Below, in pieces: positions 11,276 to 21,587 of a DNA stretch of 64,000 nucleotides. Under the pieces are notes generated by a model. That model did not search any database. It worked only from the letters and a program-made list of their open reading frames with translations, and was not told where the DNA came from. The stretch's first letter is position 1; each line of letters starts with the position of its first letter. The stretch is taken from IMG/VR virus record IMGVR_UViG_3300024350_000252, positions 124,001 through 188,000 of that record, one strand, 5' to 3'. The position numbers and the translations under genes are program-made. The stretch comes from a virus.

Positions 11276-11710
11276 GTGCTTTGGACATATCAAAATCAAA
11301 TCGTAGAAGAAATACCCGAAGGCTATATTGGCTTTGTTTATCTCATCACGAATCTTACTACCGGCCAGAAGTACATAGGCAAGAAACTAGCACAATTTAA
11401 ACGTACTAAACCTCCTCTCAAAGGCAAAAAACTCAAGCGCAGAAGCACAGTAGAAAGCGATTGGCGCGATTACTGGGGTTCTAGCGACAGGTTAAACGCA
11501 GACGTCCAAGCATTAGGTCCGGAAAACTTCACCAGAGAAATACTTTATTACTGTAAAAGCAAGGCAGAAATGGGCTATTTAGAGGCAAGAGAGCAGTTTG
11601 AACGCCGAGTTTTAGAAACAGATGACTATTATAATGGCATTATAAACGTCAGAGTAGGCGGCTCAAACATACTTAGGCAGCGTCTTTTAGAGCACGAAAA
11701 GGCAAAATAA
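11276..11710 (+). CDS. SegE-like GIY-YIG endonuclease
   Basis: A 144-residue protein starting with GTG immediately after the preceding stop. Residues 17-36 read GYIGFVYLITNLTTGQKYIG, the GIY-YIG core in its SegE-type form (VYL and KYIGKK). A basic linker follows, then ESDWRDYWGSS with an acidic residue and N-A-D-V downstream. GIY-YIG nucleases cleave DNA, and Seg proteins of T4 are free-standing homing endonucleases. Here there is no adjacent DNA-binding domain and the gene sits in an operon, so it may be a domesticated nuclease that helps recombination. Family call is good; the role is inferred. Confidence 0.7.
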   Translation: MLWTYQNQIVEEIPEGYIGFVYLITNLTTGQKYIGKKLAQFKRTKPPLKGKKLKRRSTVESDWRDYWGSSDRLNADVQALGPENFTREILYYCKSKAEMGYLEAREQFERRVLETDDYYNGIINVRVGGSNILRQRLLEHEKAK

Positions 11711-12213: not shown

Positions 12214-13467
12214 ATGAGAATCAATGATATCTTAATCGAATCACAGGTCAAAGAAGCACCACAAGGCATGCTCAAACGAGCTGGACTTGGTATAATGAGT
12301 AAATTTGGCAGTGATAAAGCTGCTGGTAAACTAGATACTGGTGCTATCGCTAATGCTCTAATGAGAGATTTTAACAGATTCCTTGGTGCTACTAAGCTAG
12401 AACCTGATGCTGATGCTGTACTACGTTTCCTACAAAGCAAAGGTTATCCATCTGATGGCGCTAAGATGGTTTTAGACAAAGAAGCTAACTCTGCTACTGG
12501 TAACAGAGCTCCGAAAGGTCCTATGGGCGGTGGCATCATGGGCAAGATGAAAGGCGCTGCTGGCTCTTTAGGCAACAGGCTAAAAGCTAATCCTGAACAG
12601 CCACAAGACAGGATTGAGCCAACAGGAGACGACGATGCGACAGCTACAGCTCAACCTAGCGCATCACAAGCACAACCAACAGCACAACCAACAGCAACAG
12701 CACAACCAACAGCAGCAGCACAACCAACAACAAAACCTAGCGCATCACAAACACAAACGCCAGCGCAACAGAACACTAATAAAATTGATAAAAAAGCACG
12801 TAAAGCCGCAGGTAAAGCTGCTATGGCTACACAGCAGGCTGCAGCTGACGCTCAGAACAAACCTGGATGGGCACGGACCGCTGATGATAAGATAAGAATA
12901 CAGGCCGCAAAAGGTGTTAATGCTAATGCTGCCGGATCTTTTAAGTCAGGAGCAGCTAAAATCCGTTCTAAAGGTCTAAACATGAGCATGTACACTGAAG
13001 AAGCTCTTCCACAAGCTACACTAGACAAAGCATTCATGCAAGCTGCTCATGATGCTGCCAAGATGGGCTATGGACTAGATCCAAACACAGGTAATATCGT
13101 TGACCAAGGTGGTGCCGCACAAGGTCCTATGGGTGGAGGCAATCAAGGTGCTGCCCAGGGCGGTGGCAGTGCTTGGGACAGTTTTAAACAAGGTGTCGCT
13201 GGAGGTCTAACTGGACAGCAAGCAGGCGATGCTTCTGGTGGCGGACAAAGCGGTATACAAGGTTCGCTAAACGTCAATGCGTTAACACAGCTATTGCCTA
13301 ATGTCAATCCAGCTCAATTAAAAATGGCTGTGAGCACGGTCAAGAGCGGTGGACAGTTAAGTAGGACACATCAAGCAGTGCTAGCATCTGCTATGATCGA
13401 TCTGATGAAAGCTGATCCTGCTACTACACAAAAAGCATTCACGCTGTTAAAACGAATACAGGCTTAA
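12214..13467 (+). CDS. Unknown Ala/Gln/Gly-rich late protein with PT-rich linker
   Basis: A 417-residue protein I do not recognise. The N-terminus (MRINDILIES) is followed by a helical domain to about residue 90. Residues about 145-190 are a low-complexity linker made of AQPT-type repeats. A basic, alanine-rich helical stretch follows (about 190-260). Residues 300-350 are Gly/Gln/Ala-rich, and the last 60 residues form a compact helical domain (NPAQLKMAVSTVKSG and onward). No cysteine clusters, signal peptide or membrane segment are evident. It has its own late promoter and overlaps the convergent gp26 extension by 3 nt at its end. The architecture (small folded ends joined by disordered linkers) suits a virion-associated or scaffold-like protein. 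Function unknown. Confidence 0.75.
   Translation: MRINDILIESQVKEAPQGMLKRAGLGIMSKFGSDKAAGKLDTGAIANALMRDFNRFLGATKLEPDADAVLRFLQSKGYPSDGAKMVLDKEANSATGNRAPKGPMGGGIMGKMKGAAGSLGNRLKANPEQPQDRIEPTGDDDATATAQPSASQAQPTAQPTATAQPTAAAQPTTKPSASQTQTPAQQNTNKIDKKARKAAGKAAMATQQAAADAQNKPGWARTADDKIRIQAAKGVNANAAGSFKSGAAKIRSKGLNMSMYTEEALPQATLDKAFMQAAHDAAKMGYGLDPNTGNIVDQGGAAQGPMGGGNQGAAQGGGSAWDSFKQGVAGGLTGQQAGDASGGGQSGIQGSLNVNALTQLLPNVNPAQLKMAVSTVKSGGQLSRTHQAVLASAMIDLMKADPATTQKAFTLLKRIQA
12670..12729 (+). repeat. Coding tandem repeat of gcacaaccaaca units
   Basis: The 12-nt unit gcacaaccaaca occurs at 12670, 12682, 12700 and 12718, with short gcaaca/gcagca spacers. It encodes the AQPT linker. A flanking cctagcgcatcacaa also occurs twice (12655 and 12735). 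Such repeats expand and contract by slippage. Confidence 0.85.
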
Positions 13468-13694
13468 AAGAAAGGCAGTCCAGAAGTCTTAGCGATTTCT
13501 ATATTTTCTTTTACTAACTTCTGTATTATTTCTCTTTCCTCATAGCTGAGGTTCATGGCTTCGGTATAAGACATTCCTCCACGCAGGTACCATATACATC
13601 TAAAAGCTTCAAGTTTAACGTCTTTGGCCTGTTCGTCAAGGGCTTTCGTCTCAGCCAGGATTTCATCAATCGTTAACGACGAAAGCCTGAACCG
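13464..13694 (-). CDS. -1 frameshift extension of gp26 (putative)
   Basis: Read in the -1 frame from the slippery site, this adds 76 residues to gp26 and ends with TAA at 13466-13464, giving a fusion of about 371 residues. The stretch reads as real protein: SLTIDEILAETKALDEQAKD, then KLEAFRCIWYLRGGMSYTEA, then EEREIIQKLVKENIEIAKTS and LPFF. It has no ATG, GTG or TTG start before an internal methionine at 13574, and no spaced Shine-Dalgarno. In T4 the gene after 26 is 51, a non-virion factor for hub assembly, so this extension sits in the gene 51 position. An alternative is a separate short protein started at ATT or at 13574. See the signal at 13641-13700. Confidence 0.75.
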   Translation of the reverse strand, partial: RFRLSSLTIDEILAETKALDEQAKDVKLEAFRCIWYLRGGMSYTEAMNLSYEEREIIQKLVKENIEIAKTSGLPFF

Positions 13695-13700
13695 AAAAAA
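13641..13700 (-). promoter_or_regulatory. Programmed -1 ribosomal frameshift signal
   Basis: On the minus strand gp26 codons GAT TTT TTC (13702-13694) contain the heptamer T TTT TTC (13700-13694), a classical -1 slippery sequence. After a 6-nt spacer comes GGCTTTCGTC (13687-13678), which pairs perfectly with GACGAAAGCC (13650-13641), giving a 10-bp stem with a 27-nt loop. The zero-frame stop TAA (13675-13673) lies in the loop. Loop bases TTAACG could also pair with CGTTAA just downstream of the stem, making a pseudoknot. The -1 frame entered at 13694 is exactly the open frame running to 13464. Confidence 0.8.
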
Positions 13701-14618: not shown

Positions 14619-14656
14619 TGCGTAGATTTCTGGCATTTTCATAATTGGTAGGAAAG

Positions 14657-17167
14657 ATGGCCATACAAAAAGTACAAATCCTGGGTGGTGAACTAGACGG
14701 TGTCGTTATTGAAAACGCTGCCAGCGAAGCTACCTTACAGGAAATTATCAAATCGGTCAATTCTATCAACAAATCCATGGGCGGCAGTTCTGGTGGCGGT
14801 GGAGGCGGTGGTGCTGCTAACAGAGCAGACAATACTGATAAAGCCAAATCTGAATGGGGTAAAAAACTAGCTAAAGGCATAGGTGCTTTAGCAGGAACTA
14901 CTACTAATCTCGCTGGCATGATAGCCAGCGGCAGCGACAAGATGAGTGAATATTCAGCGGCGCTGAATAATGGACTGATCAAGAATTTGCCTTTCGTTGG
15001 AGAAACACTTGGTGCTCTAGGAGATGTGTTTGTCCAAGGTGTTAAAGTACTAGAAGGTTGGAACGATAATCTTAAAAAATCATCGTCATATGGTGCTAAT
15101 TTTAACAACAGCATCATGGAAATGAGATCAGTAGCAGCCGGTCTTTACCTAGACATGGACGGACTTAGTCAATTAATAGCTAAACGCAGCAAAGATTTTG
15201 CTATGCTAGGACGAGGAGTCACTGAAGGTGCGAGAGAAGTTTCAGATTTTTCTCGAGAAGTTTATAAAGGTTCAGGCGGTGTTGGTGAAAGGATGCTTAA
15301 CTTGGGCAGAACTGTTGACCAACTAGCAGACAACATGACCTCTTGGTATACCATGGTCAACCGAGGTGTGAGAGACAATAGGATACAAGGACCAGCAGCA
15401 GCCCAAGCCTTTGAAAGTTACATGAAAAACATCATGTTGATTTCTAGGATGACTGGAGAAAGCGTAGAGGATCTACAGGCAAAAGCTGAAAAAGAAAGTC
15501 AAAACGCAGCTTTCCAATTAAAATTAAACAGCTTGGCTCCTGAAGCTAGAAACCGTATCATGCAACAGATGACCTATTTCCAAAGCATGTATGGCGAAAC
15601 TGGAGCTGAACTGTTTAGAGCACTGTATCTAGGAGTAGCACCACAGACTGATGCTGCTCAATTGTTAATGACACTAAATCCTCAACTGGTAGCAGAAGCA
15701 AGACGAGGACAAGCTCTAGCTAAATCAGGACTAGATGAAGAAGAATACGGCAAGCGTATGAGAAGAAGCAGAGCCGAAAGTCTATTCCAATCTGCTAGAC
15801 TAGGTAAAGCCAATGACGCACTTTATTCTATGATAGCCAGTGGTGCGCCTGGCATGAAAGAAATAGGGCAGTCCACGGAAGCATTAAACAGGACTACTCT
15901 AAAAATTGCGAACATGAAATCTGTAGATGAGATAGAAGGATTCTTGTTACAGCTTGAAAATCAAAATAAAGAAGGTGATCCATTAACTAGGATATTAAAT
16001 GCGTTTGGACTCAGCGCACACGACTTCCAGACAAAAGTGATAGATGTGCTATTGCCGATATTAGAAGGTATAGGTAGCGAATTGATCAAAGCTGGTGTAG
16101 CTGACAAGATGAAAGAAATGGGCACGACACTAGGCCGATGGGTAGGTGAGTATCTACCCGATGCTGTAGGATTTTTTGAAGAACTTACAGATGCTAATGG
16201 GTGGAAAAGATGGAATGTCAAGATCGAATCATGGTTTAGCACTATAACTGCTTATCTAAGATATGCTATAAGGAAAGCCTTTGAAAGTCCTGAAGCAGAT
16301 AATCAACTAAAACAAGAATTAGAAGAAGTACTCAAACAGAAAGAACGTGATCTAGCAGCTATTCCTAAACCAGCAACACCGATAGCTGACGCAGCAAGAC
16401 GTGGTTATGCTGCGGCATTAGAAACACAAAGAAGAGAAGCACGTGAAGCAGCCGCTGGCGGCGGTGCTCCTATTCCCGGAGGACCTGGACCTGCTCCACA
16501 AGGTTATACTTATGGTCCTCAGGAAAACATGACCGACGGCAGCAACGGTCGACTACCAGACAGCGCATTAGCTAGCATAGGACAAGGACGTCATAGATTA
16601 CAACCAAGCGCGGCTAGAGCTTTTATAGCCATGGCTGATGCTGCTCGTCGAGAAGGTATCAATCTAAATGTAACTGATTCATATAGAACATTCGCAGAAC
16701 AAGTAGACGTTAAAAATAGAAAACCCACACTGGCTGCTCGACCAGGATTTTCTAAACATGGTTGGGGATTAGCAACAGATATCAATGTACGTGATCCTAA
16801 AGTTTTTGATTGGCTAAAAAGGAATGCTACTAGATTTGGATGGGAAGGGCCTTTACAACAACCATACGAACCATGGCATTGGCAATTTAAAGGAATGAGT
16901 ACTGGTACCTTAGGTACTATGGGAAAATTGTTTGGAGAGTTTGGAGCAGGAACTCCTGTCGAACTACACGGACGAGAAGCTGTTATCACACCTAGCCAGA
17001 TGGAAGATATAATCTCAACAGGCGGCAAGGTTAATGTAGGAGAAATGATCAATGATCTAAATTCTAAGATGAACACTCTTATCAGCATCTATAAAGAAAA
17101 AATAGACATTAATAAATCTCACCTAGAAACTTTAAGACATCAATCAGGTAATATGATCTATGCCTAA
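14657..17167 (+). CDS. Tape-measure-like tail protein with M15 peptidase domain
   Basis: An 836-residue protein from the ATG at 14657, which has TAGGAAAG just upstream; an in-frame TTG at 14645 is less likely. The N-terminus has a helical IENAASEATLQEIIKSVNSI block, a Gly-rich hinge, hydrophobic helices near residues 70-130 and long helical stretches to about 580. After a Pro/Gly linker, residues about 635-750 form a D,D-carboxypeptidase (VanY/M15) domain: SKHGWGLATD at 699-708 (His701, Asp708) and EPWHW at 738-742 (His741), the classic zinc ligands. The C-terminus carries GEFGAGTPVELHGREAVITP, a motif common near tape-measure ends. It probably sets tail length and cleaves peptidoglycan at entry. 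The next gene is a paralogue overlapping by 8 nt. Confidence 0.75.
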   Translation: MAIQKVQILGGELDGVVIENAASEATLQEIIKSVNSINKSMGGSSGGGGGGGAANRADNTDKAKSEWGKKLAKGIGALAGTTTNLAGMIASGSDKMSEYSAALNNGLIKNLPFVGETLGALGDVFVQGVKVLEGWNDNLKKSSSYGANFNNSIMEMRSVAAGLYLDMDGLSQLIAKRSKDFAMLGRGVTEGAREVSDFSREVYKGSGGVGERMLNLGRTVDQLADNMTSWYTMVNRGVRDNRIQGPAAAQAFESYMKNIMLISRMTGESVEDLQAKAEKESQNAAFQLKLNSLAPEARNRIMQQMTYFQSMYGETGAELFRALYLGVAPQTDAAQLLMTLNPQLVAEARRGQALAKSGLDEEEYGKRMRRSRAESLFQSARLGKANDALYSMIASGAPGMKEIGQSTEALNRTTLKIANMKSVDEIEGFLLQLENQNKEGDPLTRILNAFGLSAHDFQTKVIDVLLPILEGIGSELIKAGVADKMKEMGTTLGRWVGEYLPDAVGFFEELTDANGWKRWNVKIESWFSTITAYLRYAIRKAFESPEADNQLKQELEEVLKQKERDLAAIPKPATPIADAARRGYAAALETQRREAREAAAGGGAPIPGGPGPAPQGYTYGPQENMTDGSNGRLPDSALASIGQGRHRLQPSAARAFIAMADAARREGINLNVTDSYRTFAEQVDVKNRKPTLAARPGFSKHGWGLATDINVRDPKVFDWLKRNATRFGWEGPLQQPYEPWHWQFKGMSTGTLGTMGKLFGEFGAGTPVELHGREAVITPSQMEDIISTGGKVNVGEMINDLNSKMNTLISIYKEKIDINKSHLETLRHQSGNMIYA

Positions 17168-19841
17168 TAGCAATGTAGAAATAATCATATCAGGAACCAG
17201 AGGCGTTATAGACAACGCAGTTTCTGAAGCCAGCTTACAAGAACTTCTTAAAGCTATACAGAAACTTGACAAAAATTCAGGTGGAGAAACTAACAGAGGA
17301 AGCACTGCCGGTGCTGCCGCAGCTTACGAAAAAAGCTCAAGCGAAATAGCGGATTCTATATCAAAATTAGACAGCAAAGCTGCTAATGCTATCAAAAAAA
17401 GCGTAGACATGTTCAAAGGTGCTATGGACAGAAACACTAATACTTTTAGTGATTTTGCCAGAGTAATGAACGATACTTTTATCAAGAAAGTTCCGTTAGT
17501 TGGCGGGCTAGTTGGAGGTTTCCTTGATATATTTGTGATGACCACAGCGGTAGTAGAAGGTTGGAACTCGACTCTTAAAAAGACTTCTGCTGTTGGTGCT
17601 AACTTTGGTAATAGTGCGTTGGCTCTACGTCATGCTGCTGCTAATGCCAGGATGGATTTAGATGAATTTGCTAATCTGGTAGTTTCTAATGCTCAAGGGT
17701 TATCTCTATTATCTGGAGATGTTAGATCAGGCGCTGAACGCCTATCTATGAGTTTTGAAAATCTATATAATGGAACTAGTGGTGCTAGAGAAAGACTGTT
17801 ACAGCTGGGAATAAATCAAGAAGAATCTGGAGATATGTTTGCTAAATGGTTGATAATGACCAATCAGGGCAATCAAGAAAATACACAGAGGACAGCTAAT
17901 CTTAACAAAGCGTTTGTTGGTTATATAGAAAACCTAGATGCGCTAGCATCTATGTCAGGAGTTGACAGAAAATCTCTAGCTCAAAAAGTAGCAGCAGTTG
18001 AACAAGATGTGATCTATCAAAGATCATTGGCAAAATTAGATCCACAAGAACAAGGCAAGATGAGAACTAGACTGACTAGGATGATAGCTCTGTTTGGAGA
18101 CCAAGGTGCCGACTTACACAAAGCACAGGCGGCAAACACTACACCAGTCACGCAAGGTGCTTTCCAAATATTGGGATTAGCACAGGGTATGAGACAGGTT
18201 CTAGAAGAAGATCTAAGACAGGCTAGAGATCATAATGTAACCGAAGAAGAATACAACAAAGGTGAATCTGAAAGAACTTTTAAATTGTATCGAGTAGGAT
18301 TACAGCATTTTAAAAACAACAGGTCGTTCTTTATGGCCACACTGGCCACAGCTGAAGGTCAACGACAATTAGGCCCTGGCATGACTAAAATGTTACAAGA
18401 TCTTCTTAGTTTTGGTGATATCAGCAAGATGACTGATGCTGAACTTAGGAAAGCTATAGAAGACAGTAGAAATAAAAAAAACAAATACGAAGGTATAACA
18501 AAAATCCTAGATACATTTAGTTTAGCATTCAAAGATGCTAGGAAAAACTTTTTTGACACATTGATACCTGTATTAAAAGGTATGGGAGAAGCATTAAAAC
18601 CTCTACCTGCTTTATTAAAACAAGCAGGTGAAGATCTTTCTAAATGGATCAAAGATGTTGCTATGCCCGCTATGACTGCTGTATATGATAATATGTTTAG
18701 CGAAGAAGGCAGGAACAAGATATTTGTACATCTCGAAGGCTGGGCAAGATTGATGTATGTAGAAATAAAAAGGCTTATATCTGATTTTCTTGTAGCCCAA
18801 GGAGCTCCAGACAGTGTCGTAAGTTTATTTTTAGGAAAATATGACGATAATTTACGAAGAGCTCAAATGAAAAATGCGTTAGGAAGAGCAGCAGCCGGAG
18901 GCGGCATGACTTCTTCTGGAGGAGCTACAACAATACAAAGAGATGCTGGTTCTGTGATAGCACCAGACGCATCAACTGAATCAGAAACTATGACAATAGC
19001 TAACACTATTGGTGTTAATACTCAACAATTTGTCGCTCCGTCTGCTGGTGGCAAGATGACCGGTACATATCTTACACAAGATCAAACTAGAGAACTGGTG
19101 GTGCCCGGCGCTTCTGAGTTTGGATCTGCTACGGTTCCATTAGAAAATTCCACAAGAAGATGGGAATTCGCTAAAGGTCATGAACCATTTGGTGCTCCAT
19201 TTAATGGTTTGATCACTGTAGCTGACATCGAAAAACAAATTGTAGAATTATGGGATGAAAAAGCTAATTCCGGAGAAGGTATAACTCTAAGGATTTCGGG
19301 ATTTGATAAAGAAAAAAGTAAAGCTATTTTTGATGCTATACGAGGAAAACCAGTAACTGCTGGACAGACTATAGGTATAGGACCAAACAACCTGTTAACA
19401 GGGTCTTGGTTTAGTTATCTAACACCTAATACTGTACAAGTACAAGGATTTAGAGGAAAACCAGAAAATGAAAGGACGTTTGATCCTAGAATATTTTTTC
19501 CAGGTGAAGGACCAAAAGCAAATAATCCAGCAGCATCGACTCGAGCAGCTCCGGGAGCACCGCCCGCTTCTCGTGCGTATGGATCTCTAGGTGCTACAGG
19601 CAAGCTGTTTGAAGAATTTGGAGCAGGTACAAAAGCGATTCTACATGGCAGAGAAGCTGTAGTTACACCTCAACAGCTGGAAGGAATAGTTAATAGCAAA
19701 GATCAAATCGAGATGGTACAATTCATTTCTAGTTTAAATACTAATATGGCCAATCTTCTAGAAATAGCCAGACAAGAACTATATATAGATCAAAACAAAG
19801 CACATGTTCAAAAAGGAGTTAAAATGCCTTACATGGCATAA
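17160..19841 (+). CDS. Second tape-measure-like tail protein, paralogue of the preceding gene
   Basis: An 893-residue protein starting inside the end of the previous gene (8-nt overlap). Its N-terminus IDNAVSEASLQELLKAIQKL matches the upstream protein block for block. So do VEGWNSTLKKTSAVGANFGN (upstream: EGWNDNLKKSSSYGANFNNS) and the C-terminal GKLFEEFGAGTKAILHGREA. The middle is long and helical, with hydrophobic segments near residues 95-135. Instead of the M15 domain, residues about 590-800 hold a beta-rich part with no peptidase motif I can see. The pair clearly arose by duplication. One may be the ruler and the other a tail or hub component; T4 itself has a single gp29. The exact role of each is inferred. 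Confidence 0.7.
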   Translation: MPNSNVEIIISGTRGVIDNAVSEASLQELLKAIQKLDKNSGGETNRGSTAGAAAAYEKSSSEIADSISKLDSKAANAIKKSVDMFKGAMDRNTNTFSDFARVMNDTFIKKVPLVGGLVGGFLDIFVMTTAVVEGWNSTLKKTSAVGANFGNSALALRHAAANARMDLDEFANLVVSNAQGLSLLSGDVRSGAERLSMSFENLYNGTSGARERLLQLGINQEESGDMFAKWLIMTNQGNQENTQRTANLNKAFVGYIENLDALASMSGVDRKSLAQKVAAVEQDVIYQRSLAKLDPQEQGKMRTRLTRMIALFGDQGADLHKAQAANTTPVTQGAFQILGLAQGMRQVLEEDLRQARDHNVTEEEYNKGESERTFKLYRVGLQHFKNNRSFFMATLATAEGQRQLGPGMTKMLQDLLSFGDISKMTDAELRKAIEDSRNKKNKYEGITKILDTFSLAFKDARKNFFDTLIPVLKGMGEALKPLPALLKQAGEDLSKWIKDVAMPAMTAVYDNMFSEEGRNKIFVHLEGWARLMYVEIKRLISDFLVAQGAPDSVVSLFLGKYDDNLRRAQMKNALGRAAAGGGMTSSGGATTIQRDAGSVIAPDASTESETMTIANTIGVNTQQFVAPSAGGKMTGTYLTQDQTRELVVPGASEFGSATVPLENSTRRWEFAKGHEPFGAPFNGLITVADIEKQIVELWDEKANSGEGITLRISGFDKEKSKAIFDAIRGKPVTAGQTIGIGPNNLLTGSWFSYLTPNTVQVQGFRGKPENERTFDPRIFFPGEGPKANNPAASTRAAPGAPPASRAYGSLGATGKLFEEFGAGTKAILHGREAVVTPQQLEGIVNSKDQIEMVQFISSLNTNMANLLEIARQELYIDQNKAHVQKGVKMPYMA

Positions 19842-19853
19842 TTGGAGAATACA

Positions 19854-21587
19854 GTGAGCTGGAAAAAATATTTTACACCCGTTACAGTTGGAGCGCAAAC
19901 AGGGACATTCAGCCCACTGGGCAATGGTTCTCGTCCGGGTCCAGCCAAAGTAAATTATAGTTCTTACCTGCCCGACGTCTACGCAGGTACACCTAATCGT
20001 ACAGAACGTTATATGCAATATGACACTATGGACATGGATTCAGAAGTCAACGCAGCGTTAGATATTCTAGCAGAGTTTTGTACGCAGGACAACAGAGACA
20101 ACTATACAGGATTCCAATTCCAGTTTAAAGGCACACCTACAGCCACTGAAGTCAAGATATTAAAAGACAGTTTACAAAAATGGCACAAACAGAATCAGTT
20201 CGATACTAGACTGTTTAGGATCATTAGAAATATATTCAAATACGGTGATGCGTTCTTTGTACGTGATCCAGAAACTAAAAAATGGTTTTATGTAGATCCA
20301 GGTAAAGTTACCAAGATCATCGTCAACGAAAGCGAAGGCAAAAAACCAGAACAGTATGTTGTTAGAGATTTTAATCTCAACTTTAAGCATCTCGTAGCTA
20401 CAAACATAAGCCCTAACACTAGCAACACACCCGCAGGCACAGCCAACTATATCAGCGGTGGCGCACTAGGAAGAGGCATGGTAGGAGCAGCACCTACACA
20501 GACTGGCAGCAGATTCAGCGTAAATCAAAACGAAATCGCTATAGATGCTGAACATGTTATACACATCAGCTTATCAGAAGGACTAGATAACAACTATCCA
20601 TTTGGCAACAGCCTGTTAGAATCTGTATTCAAAGTCTACAAGCAAAAAGAATTGCTTGAAGATGCTATCGTTATCTATCGTATACAACGTGCTCCGGAAC
20701 GTCGTGTGTTTTATGTAGACGTTGGTAACATGCCCGCACACATGGCCATGAGCTTTGTTGAGCGTGTGAAAAATGAAATCAATCAACGTCGTATACCTAG
20801 CCAAGCAGGCGGCGGACAGAACATCATAGATGCTAGCTATAATCCGTTGAGCATCTCTGAAGACTACTTCTTTCCCCAGACCGCAGAAGGTCGAGGATCA
20901 AAAGTAGATGTTCTACCAGGTGGTACTAATCTAGGCGAAATCGACGATCTACGCTACTTTACTAATAAACTATTCCGTGCTTTGCGCATACCTAGCAGCT
21001 ACTTGCCAACCATGCCTGACGACAGTCAAGCACAGCATGTGGATGGCAAAGTAGGCACAGCCTACATTCAAGAACTGCGTTTTAACAAATATTGCGAACG
21101 TCTACAGAGCCTGATGATCGGAGAGTTTGATCTAGAATACAAGAGATGGTTGATAGATCAAGGCATCAATATTGACAATTCTCTGTTTGAACTTAAATTT
21201 AATCCTCCACAAAACTTCGCAGCTTATCGTCAGAGCGAACTGGACAACGCTAGAGTACAGACGTTTGCTGCTTTACAAGAAGTGCCTTACCTCAGCAAGC
21301 GTTTCTCTATGAAACGTTTCTTAGGATTGAGCCAAGAAGAGATCGTAGAAAACGAACGTATGTGGAAAGAAGAAAATGGTTCTACTGTAGCAGCAGCTCT
21401 AAACGCAGCAGCAGAATTGCGTGGAGTAGGAGTTACACCGGACGGTATTTCAGGCGATCTAGGCGATCAAACAGCAGAAGCACCAGAAGATATGGCAGCG
21501 GCTGCTGAACCAGGAACCTCAGAAGCACCAGAAACAGCAGCAGCTACAGCAGCACCGCCAGCACCACCGACTCAGCAGACTATCTAA
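19854..21587 (+). CDS. gp20: Portal vertex protein gp20
   Basis: About 577 residues from the GTG at 19854, which follows GGAG by 6 nt; an in-frame TTG at 19842 would add four residues and lacks a spaced ribosome site. Typical gp20 blocks are DMDSEVNAALDILAEFCTQD, a KYGDAFFVRDPETKKW segment, YPFGNSLLESVFKVYKQKEL, then RRVFYVDVGNMP and YFFPQTAEGRGSKVDVLPGG. gp20 forms the dodecameric portal at one capsid vertex, through which DNA is packaged and ejected. The C-terminus is Ala/Glu/Pro-rich. In T4-like phages it usually follows gp18 and gp19; here it follows the tape-measure pair. Assignment is confident. Confidence 0.95.
   Translation: MSWKKYFTPVTVGAQTGTFSPLGNGSRPGPAKVNYSSYLPDVYAGTPNRTERYMQYDTMDMDSEVNAALDILAEFCTQDNRDNYTGFQFQFKGTPTATEVKILKDSLQKWHKQNQFDTRLFRIIRNIFKYGDAFFVRDPETKKWFYVDPGKVTKIIVNESEGKKPEQYVVRDFNLNFKHLVATNISPNTSNTPAGTANYISGGALGRGMVGAAPTQTGSRFSVNQNEIAIDAEHVIHISLSEGLDNNYPFGNSLLESVFKVYKQKELLEDAIVIYRIQRAPERRVFYVDVGNMPAHMAMSFVERVKNEINQRRIPSQAGGGQNIIDASYNPLSISEDYFFPQTAEGRGSKVDVLPGGTNLGEIDDLRYFTNKLFRALRIPSSYLPTMPDDSQAQHVDGKVGTAYIQELRFNKYCERLQSLMIGEFDLEYKRWLIDQGINIDNSLFELKFNPPQNFAAYRQSELDNARVQTFAALQEVPYLSKRFSMKRFLGLSQEEIVENERMWKEENGSTVAAALNAAAELRGVGVTPDGISGDLGDQTAEAPEDMAAAAEPGTSEAPETAAATAAPPAPPTQQTI

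Follow-up and report, generated by a model that had tools for sequence, protein, structure and literature searches.

The gp26-like gene in the window (the whole 64,000-nt stretch that we analysed, positions 124,001 to 188,000 of IMG/VR record IMGVR_UViG_3300024350_000252) ends in a -1 frameshift cassette. The cassette is conserved among relatives, the extension that it opens is under selection, and T4 gp26 and gp51 belong to one protein family. By analogy with G/GT of phage lambda, the gp26-like protein and its -1 fusion very probably form a tail assembly chaperone pair. An earlier note on this DNA, made from the sequence by itself, had proposed the two products as the G/GT equivalent of a T4-like lineage, and the conserved heptamer and extension, the stem and the architecture of gp51 all support that proposal.

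Layout of the cassette at the 3' end of the gp26-like gene

The cassette and the genes that face it are listed in Table 1. Read directly from the minus strand, the gp26-like gene ends GAT TTT TTC GGT TCA GGC TTT CGT CGT TAA, and the in-phase heptamer, the 6-nt spacer, the 10-bp stem and the stop codon in its loop are all present as the earlier note had described them. The two arms, GGCTTTCGTC and GACGAAAGCC, pair perfectly along their whole length, and the distance of 6 nt between heptamer and stem is inside the 5–9 nt range for the stimulatory structure of a -1 cassette. The -1 frame claimed in the note is open as well, running for 76 codons after the shift to a stop codon at 13466-13464, with a predicted fusion product of 371 aa. 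The fold of the window's cassette had a z-score of -3.6 when compared with dinucleotide shuffles and of -2.8 when compared with shuffles of synonymous codons. The word TTTTTTC as such is not rare, occurring 26 times on the two strands of the window versus 13.9 times expected from shuffles; what is not due to chance is the phase of the heptamer, its place and its invariance among relatives.

Table 1. Positions, in window coordinates, of the cassette elements and of the divergent large genes
Feature	Position	Strand	Basis
gp26-like gene, TAC-N, short chaperone (candidate role), 301 aa	13673..14578	-	PF12322, phrog_150
Slippery heptamer T TTT TTC	13694..13700	-	in phase; invariant in relatives
6-nt spacer GGTTCA	13688..13693	-	sequence
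Stem 5' arm GGCTTTCGTC	13678..13687	-	pairing, relatives, synonymous shuffles
Stem 3' arm GACGAAAGCC	13641..13650	-	pairing, relatives, synonymous shuffles
0-frame stop TAA, within the loop of the stem	13673..13675	-	sequence
-1 frame extension, 76 codons + stop, putative TAC-C, gp51-like tail	13464..13694	-	relatives, dN/dS, model
Two large paralogous genes, candidate tape measures, divergent from gp26	14645..19841	+	paralogy, VanY

The identity of the gene was established with profiles. Its protein matches PF12322 (T4_baseplate) at 62.5 bits, with a cut-off of 24.5, and phrog_150 ('baseplate hub') at 6e-23, while single-sequence hhalign comparison of the window's family with T4 gp26 and gp51 was too weak and the Pfam and PHROG evidence was used instead. 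When a structure model of the protein (pLDDT 79) was compared with viral models, the best matches were predicted T4-like baseplate hub assembly proteins and gp26; a fold search with the same model in the PDB returned no similar solved structure, and a DNA similarity search among phages gave no match. Within the 238-kb virus record, which is possibly incomplete, PF12322 matches the gp26-like gene and no other, and we found in that record no second PF12322 gene carrying the extension in the manner of the separate gene 51 of T4. Searching the same, possibly incomplete, record with T4 gp51 also produced no match, in a search run without a positive control.

Two overlapping plus-strand genes, 14645-17167 and 17160-19841, diverge from the gp26-like gene and encode paralogues of 840 and 893 aa, which are 27% identical over 521 aa and 47% identical at the C end. 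A VanY peptidase domain is present in the first of them, and it is plausible that the pair are tape measures, possibly duplicated. Directly after them lies a gene (19842-21587) which, from its position and sequence, we take to be the portal gene; in Phosso, 121Q, XaC1 and PA5oct, too, portal, a large structural protein and a divergent gp26 are arranged in a similar order. At the other end of the locus, a plus-strand gene (12214-13467) for a Q/A/T/P-rich protein of 417 aa, for which Pfam gave no match, is convergent with the extension, and their stop codons overlap at 13464-13467, leaving no gap between the frames. Further along, just downstream of gp47/gp46-like genes, a 144-aa plus-strand ORF (11276-11710) has a GIY-YIG-like start (YLITN...KYIGKK) and, judged by eye, is possibly a homing endonuclease.

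Conservation of the heptamer, the stem and the extension

Relatives of gp26 were collected by searching viral contigs with the gp26 protein and then with an alignment, the identity going down to about 43% for the large set and to 35% for the first one. TTTTTTC was the last in-phase heptamer before the stop codon in 73 of the 73 distinct gp26 genes of the large set, and the -1 frame at these loci was open from the heptamer for 77–78 codons, or, in three of them, until the contig ended. When the extension protein alone served as the query of a separate search, TTTTTTC was in phase at 80 of 80 loci. Considering that both Phe codons are used elsewhere in these genes (163 TTT, 115 TTC), and that the fraction of relevant preceding codons ending in T is about 0.7, this invariance is not explained by amino-acid constraint. 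At the same time, the position of the 0-frame stop varies among the relatives from 3 to 33 nt past the heptamer, and the extension protein is conserved in the alignment. The three elements that the earlier note had joined into one cassette, heptamer, stem and extension, travel together across the relatives (66 of them for the stem), and the extension frame is never broken.

The longest stem starting 4–10 nt past the heptamer had a mean length of 8.4 bp in 66 distinct relatives, compared with 5.5 bp in synonymous-codon shuffles of the same extensions (SD of the mean 0.19, maximum 6.0). In eight close relatives, 95% of the cells of the window's stem were paired; the one compensated pair, 22/52, is A-U in four of these, U-A in two and unpaired in two, and one G-U was counted. 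A pairing of TTAACG in the loop with CGTTAA, which the note had put forward as a possible pseudoknot, does exist in the window, but all six pairs are found only there, with one pair present in one of the eight close relatives and another in three, and we rejected it as a conserved pseudoknot. An alternative loop pairing, 13658-13654 with 13628-13624, had 82.5% of its cells paired and two doubly changed pairs; a pseudoknot at that place is possible and weakly supported, the signal following mostly from two conserved alanine codons.

Pairwise comparisons of the extension gave dN of 0.05–0.62, with dS ranging from 0.8 up to saturated values, and the third codon position was the one that changed most. 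With dN well below dS, the extension is under purifying selection, and the protein-like content that the note had seen in the -1 frame is borne out. The structure model of the extension is all helical and confident (pLDDT 86), and a fold search with that model returned no significant match.

The same arrangement is found in isolated phages. TTTTTTC, in phase and followed by an open -1 tail, occurs in the jumbo phages Phosso, Atu_ph07, XaC1, 121Q and PA5oct, as well as in Munch, GAP32, Desulfovibrio phage 7757, ACP17 and Mendera, in the cyanophages S-RIM8 and S-CAM7, and in Aeromonas phage phiAS5, a member of the Straboviridae, T4's own family. Variants of the heptamer occur in SH-Ab 15599, with TTTTTTA, and in Stenotrophomonas phage CM1, with seven T. 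In public records of relatives the extension figures as a hypothetical protein of its own or as 'gp51 baseplate hub assembly catalyst', and the starts given to it are unlikely (loci L020, 4825-5055; L023, 4840-5049; L029, 4262-4384; L031, 2256-2393; L034, 2214-2393); in the record of PA5oct (L024) it is unannotated.

The proposed frameshift and its alternatives

It is highly likely, in our view, that gp26 is a TAC-N and that a stem-aided -1 shift on U_UUU_UUC turns part of it into a TAC-NC fusion, the two products making a chaperone pair. In such a mechanism gp26 would act as the short tail assembly chaperone (TAC-N), and a fraction of the ribosomes on U_UUU_UUC would step back one base, with the stem-loop 6 nt downstream aiding the slippage. 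The slipped ribosomes would bypass the gp26 stop in the loop and read 76 further codons, yielding the 371-aa fusion (TAC-NC) as a minor product at a fixed ratio, and its helical C-terminal domain would correspond to the end of T4 gp51. Many short copies and few fusion copies would then coat the tape measure, by analogy with lambda gpG/gpGT, two proteins that virions do not contain, and the extension may, again as in lambda, recruit tail-tube subunits during assembly. We infer the slippage, its efficiency and the chaperone role, the last of these from family membership.

A quite different possibility is that the extension is a small gp51-like gene of its own, whose translation would begin by re-initiation or at a non-standard start past the gp26 stop, so that no fusion is made. 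Such genes do occur: in Pseudomonas phage Cygsa01 (L030, 3809-3982) and Vibrio phage K475 (L032, 2223-2405), both distant relatives without the slippery heptamer, the gp51-like tail has an ORF to itself, and its ATG shares bases with the gp26 stop (TAATG), and Phosso and Atu_ph07 have a -1-frame ATG at the gp26 stop. In the window, however, the first ATG, GTG or TTG of the extension is codon 41 of 76, in agreement with the earlier claim that the extension has no start of its own, and an own start is not conserved in the relatives either, the stretch from the upstream stop to codon 15 containing an ATG in only 16 of 72 distinct relatives while the heptamer is found in all of them. Since a separate gene would not require a conserved heptamer or a conserved stem, we consider this explanation very improbable.

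We give a somewhat lower probability still to slippage of RNA polymerase on the six T, which would place an extra U in part of the mRNA and lead to the same fusion by normal translation. The six T are invariant and the distant phage CM1 has seven, which favours slippage of this kind, but a run of six T is short for efficient RNA polymerase slippage, and the conservation of the trailing C and of the downstream stem suits a ribosomal -1 shift. As for a sequencing error or a decayed gene, in which one ordinary ORF comprising gp26 and the extension would have been split by an indel, nothing specific speaks for it, and it is hardly conceivable in the face of an identical frame change and an identical heptamer in 73 of 73 relatives and in many isolates, and the relatives refute it.

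Comparison with T4, lambda and other chaperone loci

T4 gp26 and gp51 both match PF12322. On phrog_150, T4 gp51 covers positions 13-280 and T4 gp26 positions 14-235; the phiAS5 extension matches positions 231-281 of the same profile, and both it and the S-RIM8 extension match phrog_634 ('baseplate hub assembly catalyst'). Considering that gp51 runs past gp26 on phrog_150, and that the phiAS5 and S-RIM8 extensions have these matches, gp51 is built like the predicted fusion, with a gp26-like domain followed by a C-terminal tail. The window's own extension had no direct match to phrog_634 or gp51 and showed weak profile similarity to the phiAS5 and cyanophage extensions; we link it to the phiAS5 group because of where it lies and because the two have the FFR start and the heptamer in common. 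The likeness to T4 is one of family and architecture, whereas the encoding differs: the long form of T4 comes from a separate, divergently transcribed gene 51, and that of the window would come from a single gene with a -1 shift. The earlier note had stated that the gene after 26 in T4 is 51, which holds insofar as the two genes adjoin, but 51 is on the opposite strand.

Where the shift came from is a matter on which we see even chances: the U_UUU_UUC shift at the end of gp26 may be ancestral in the whole T4-like supergroup, with gene 51 being the fused form copied as a gene of its own, and with the tail of Cygsa01 and Vibrio phage K475 having become a separately started ORF. If this is true, three different mechanisms set one chaperone ratio within one family. 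Frameshift, separate ORF and duplicated gene offer a natural comparison on why it matters for contractile tails in what ratio the two forms are made, and T4-like phages outside the T4 genus gain a concrete candidate mechanism for making two chaperone forms.

Vladimirov, Gautam and Davidson reportedly identified T4 gp26 and gp51 as the tail assembly chaperones of T4-like phages in 2022. Some T4-like phages are described, in a passage of PMC10885494, as having two genes, a short one and a long, fused one, and a passage of PMC12846349, citing Vladimirov et al. 2022, reports poly-T slippery sequences in the TAC-N genes of T4-like phages. Chaperone frameshifts have been published before, those at poly-T sites of T4-like phages among them, and the gp26 case is a confirmation and an extension of that work; what may be new about it is how broad and how strict the conservation is, and that three modes of encoding coexist.

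In lambda, the short and the long form occur at about 30:1 and both bind to the tape measure, the long one also recruiting the tail tube protein (PMC5009743). The gp26 locus resembles lambda G/GT, and the chaperone frameshifts of other dsDNA phages, in arrangement, which is what we compared rather than sequence, with a short protein and a -1 fusion, predicted in the case of gp26, from one gene and the shift near the 3' end (PMC5009743). It differs from lambda in its heptamer and in that gp26 does not lie upstream of the candidate tape-measure genes but diverges from them. A likeness in the slippery site is seen in the chaperone locus of the Vandenendeviridae and Andersonviridae (phage Adele, PMC12846349), where a poly-T site also ends TAC-N and the -1 frame is uninterrupted, although these phages belong to another family and their slippery site is GTTTTT (PMC12846349).
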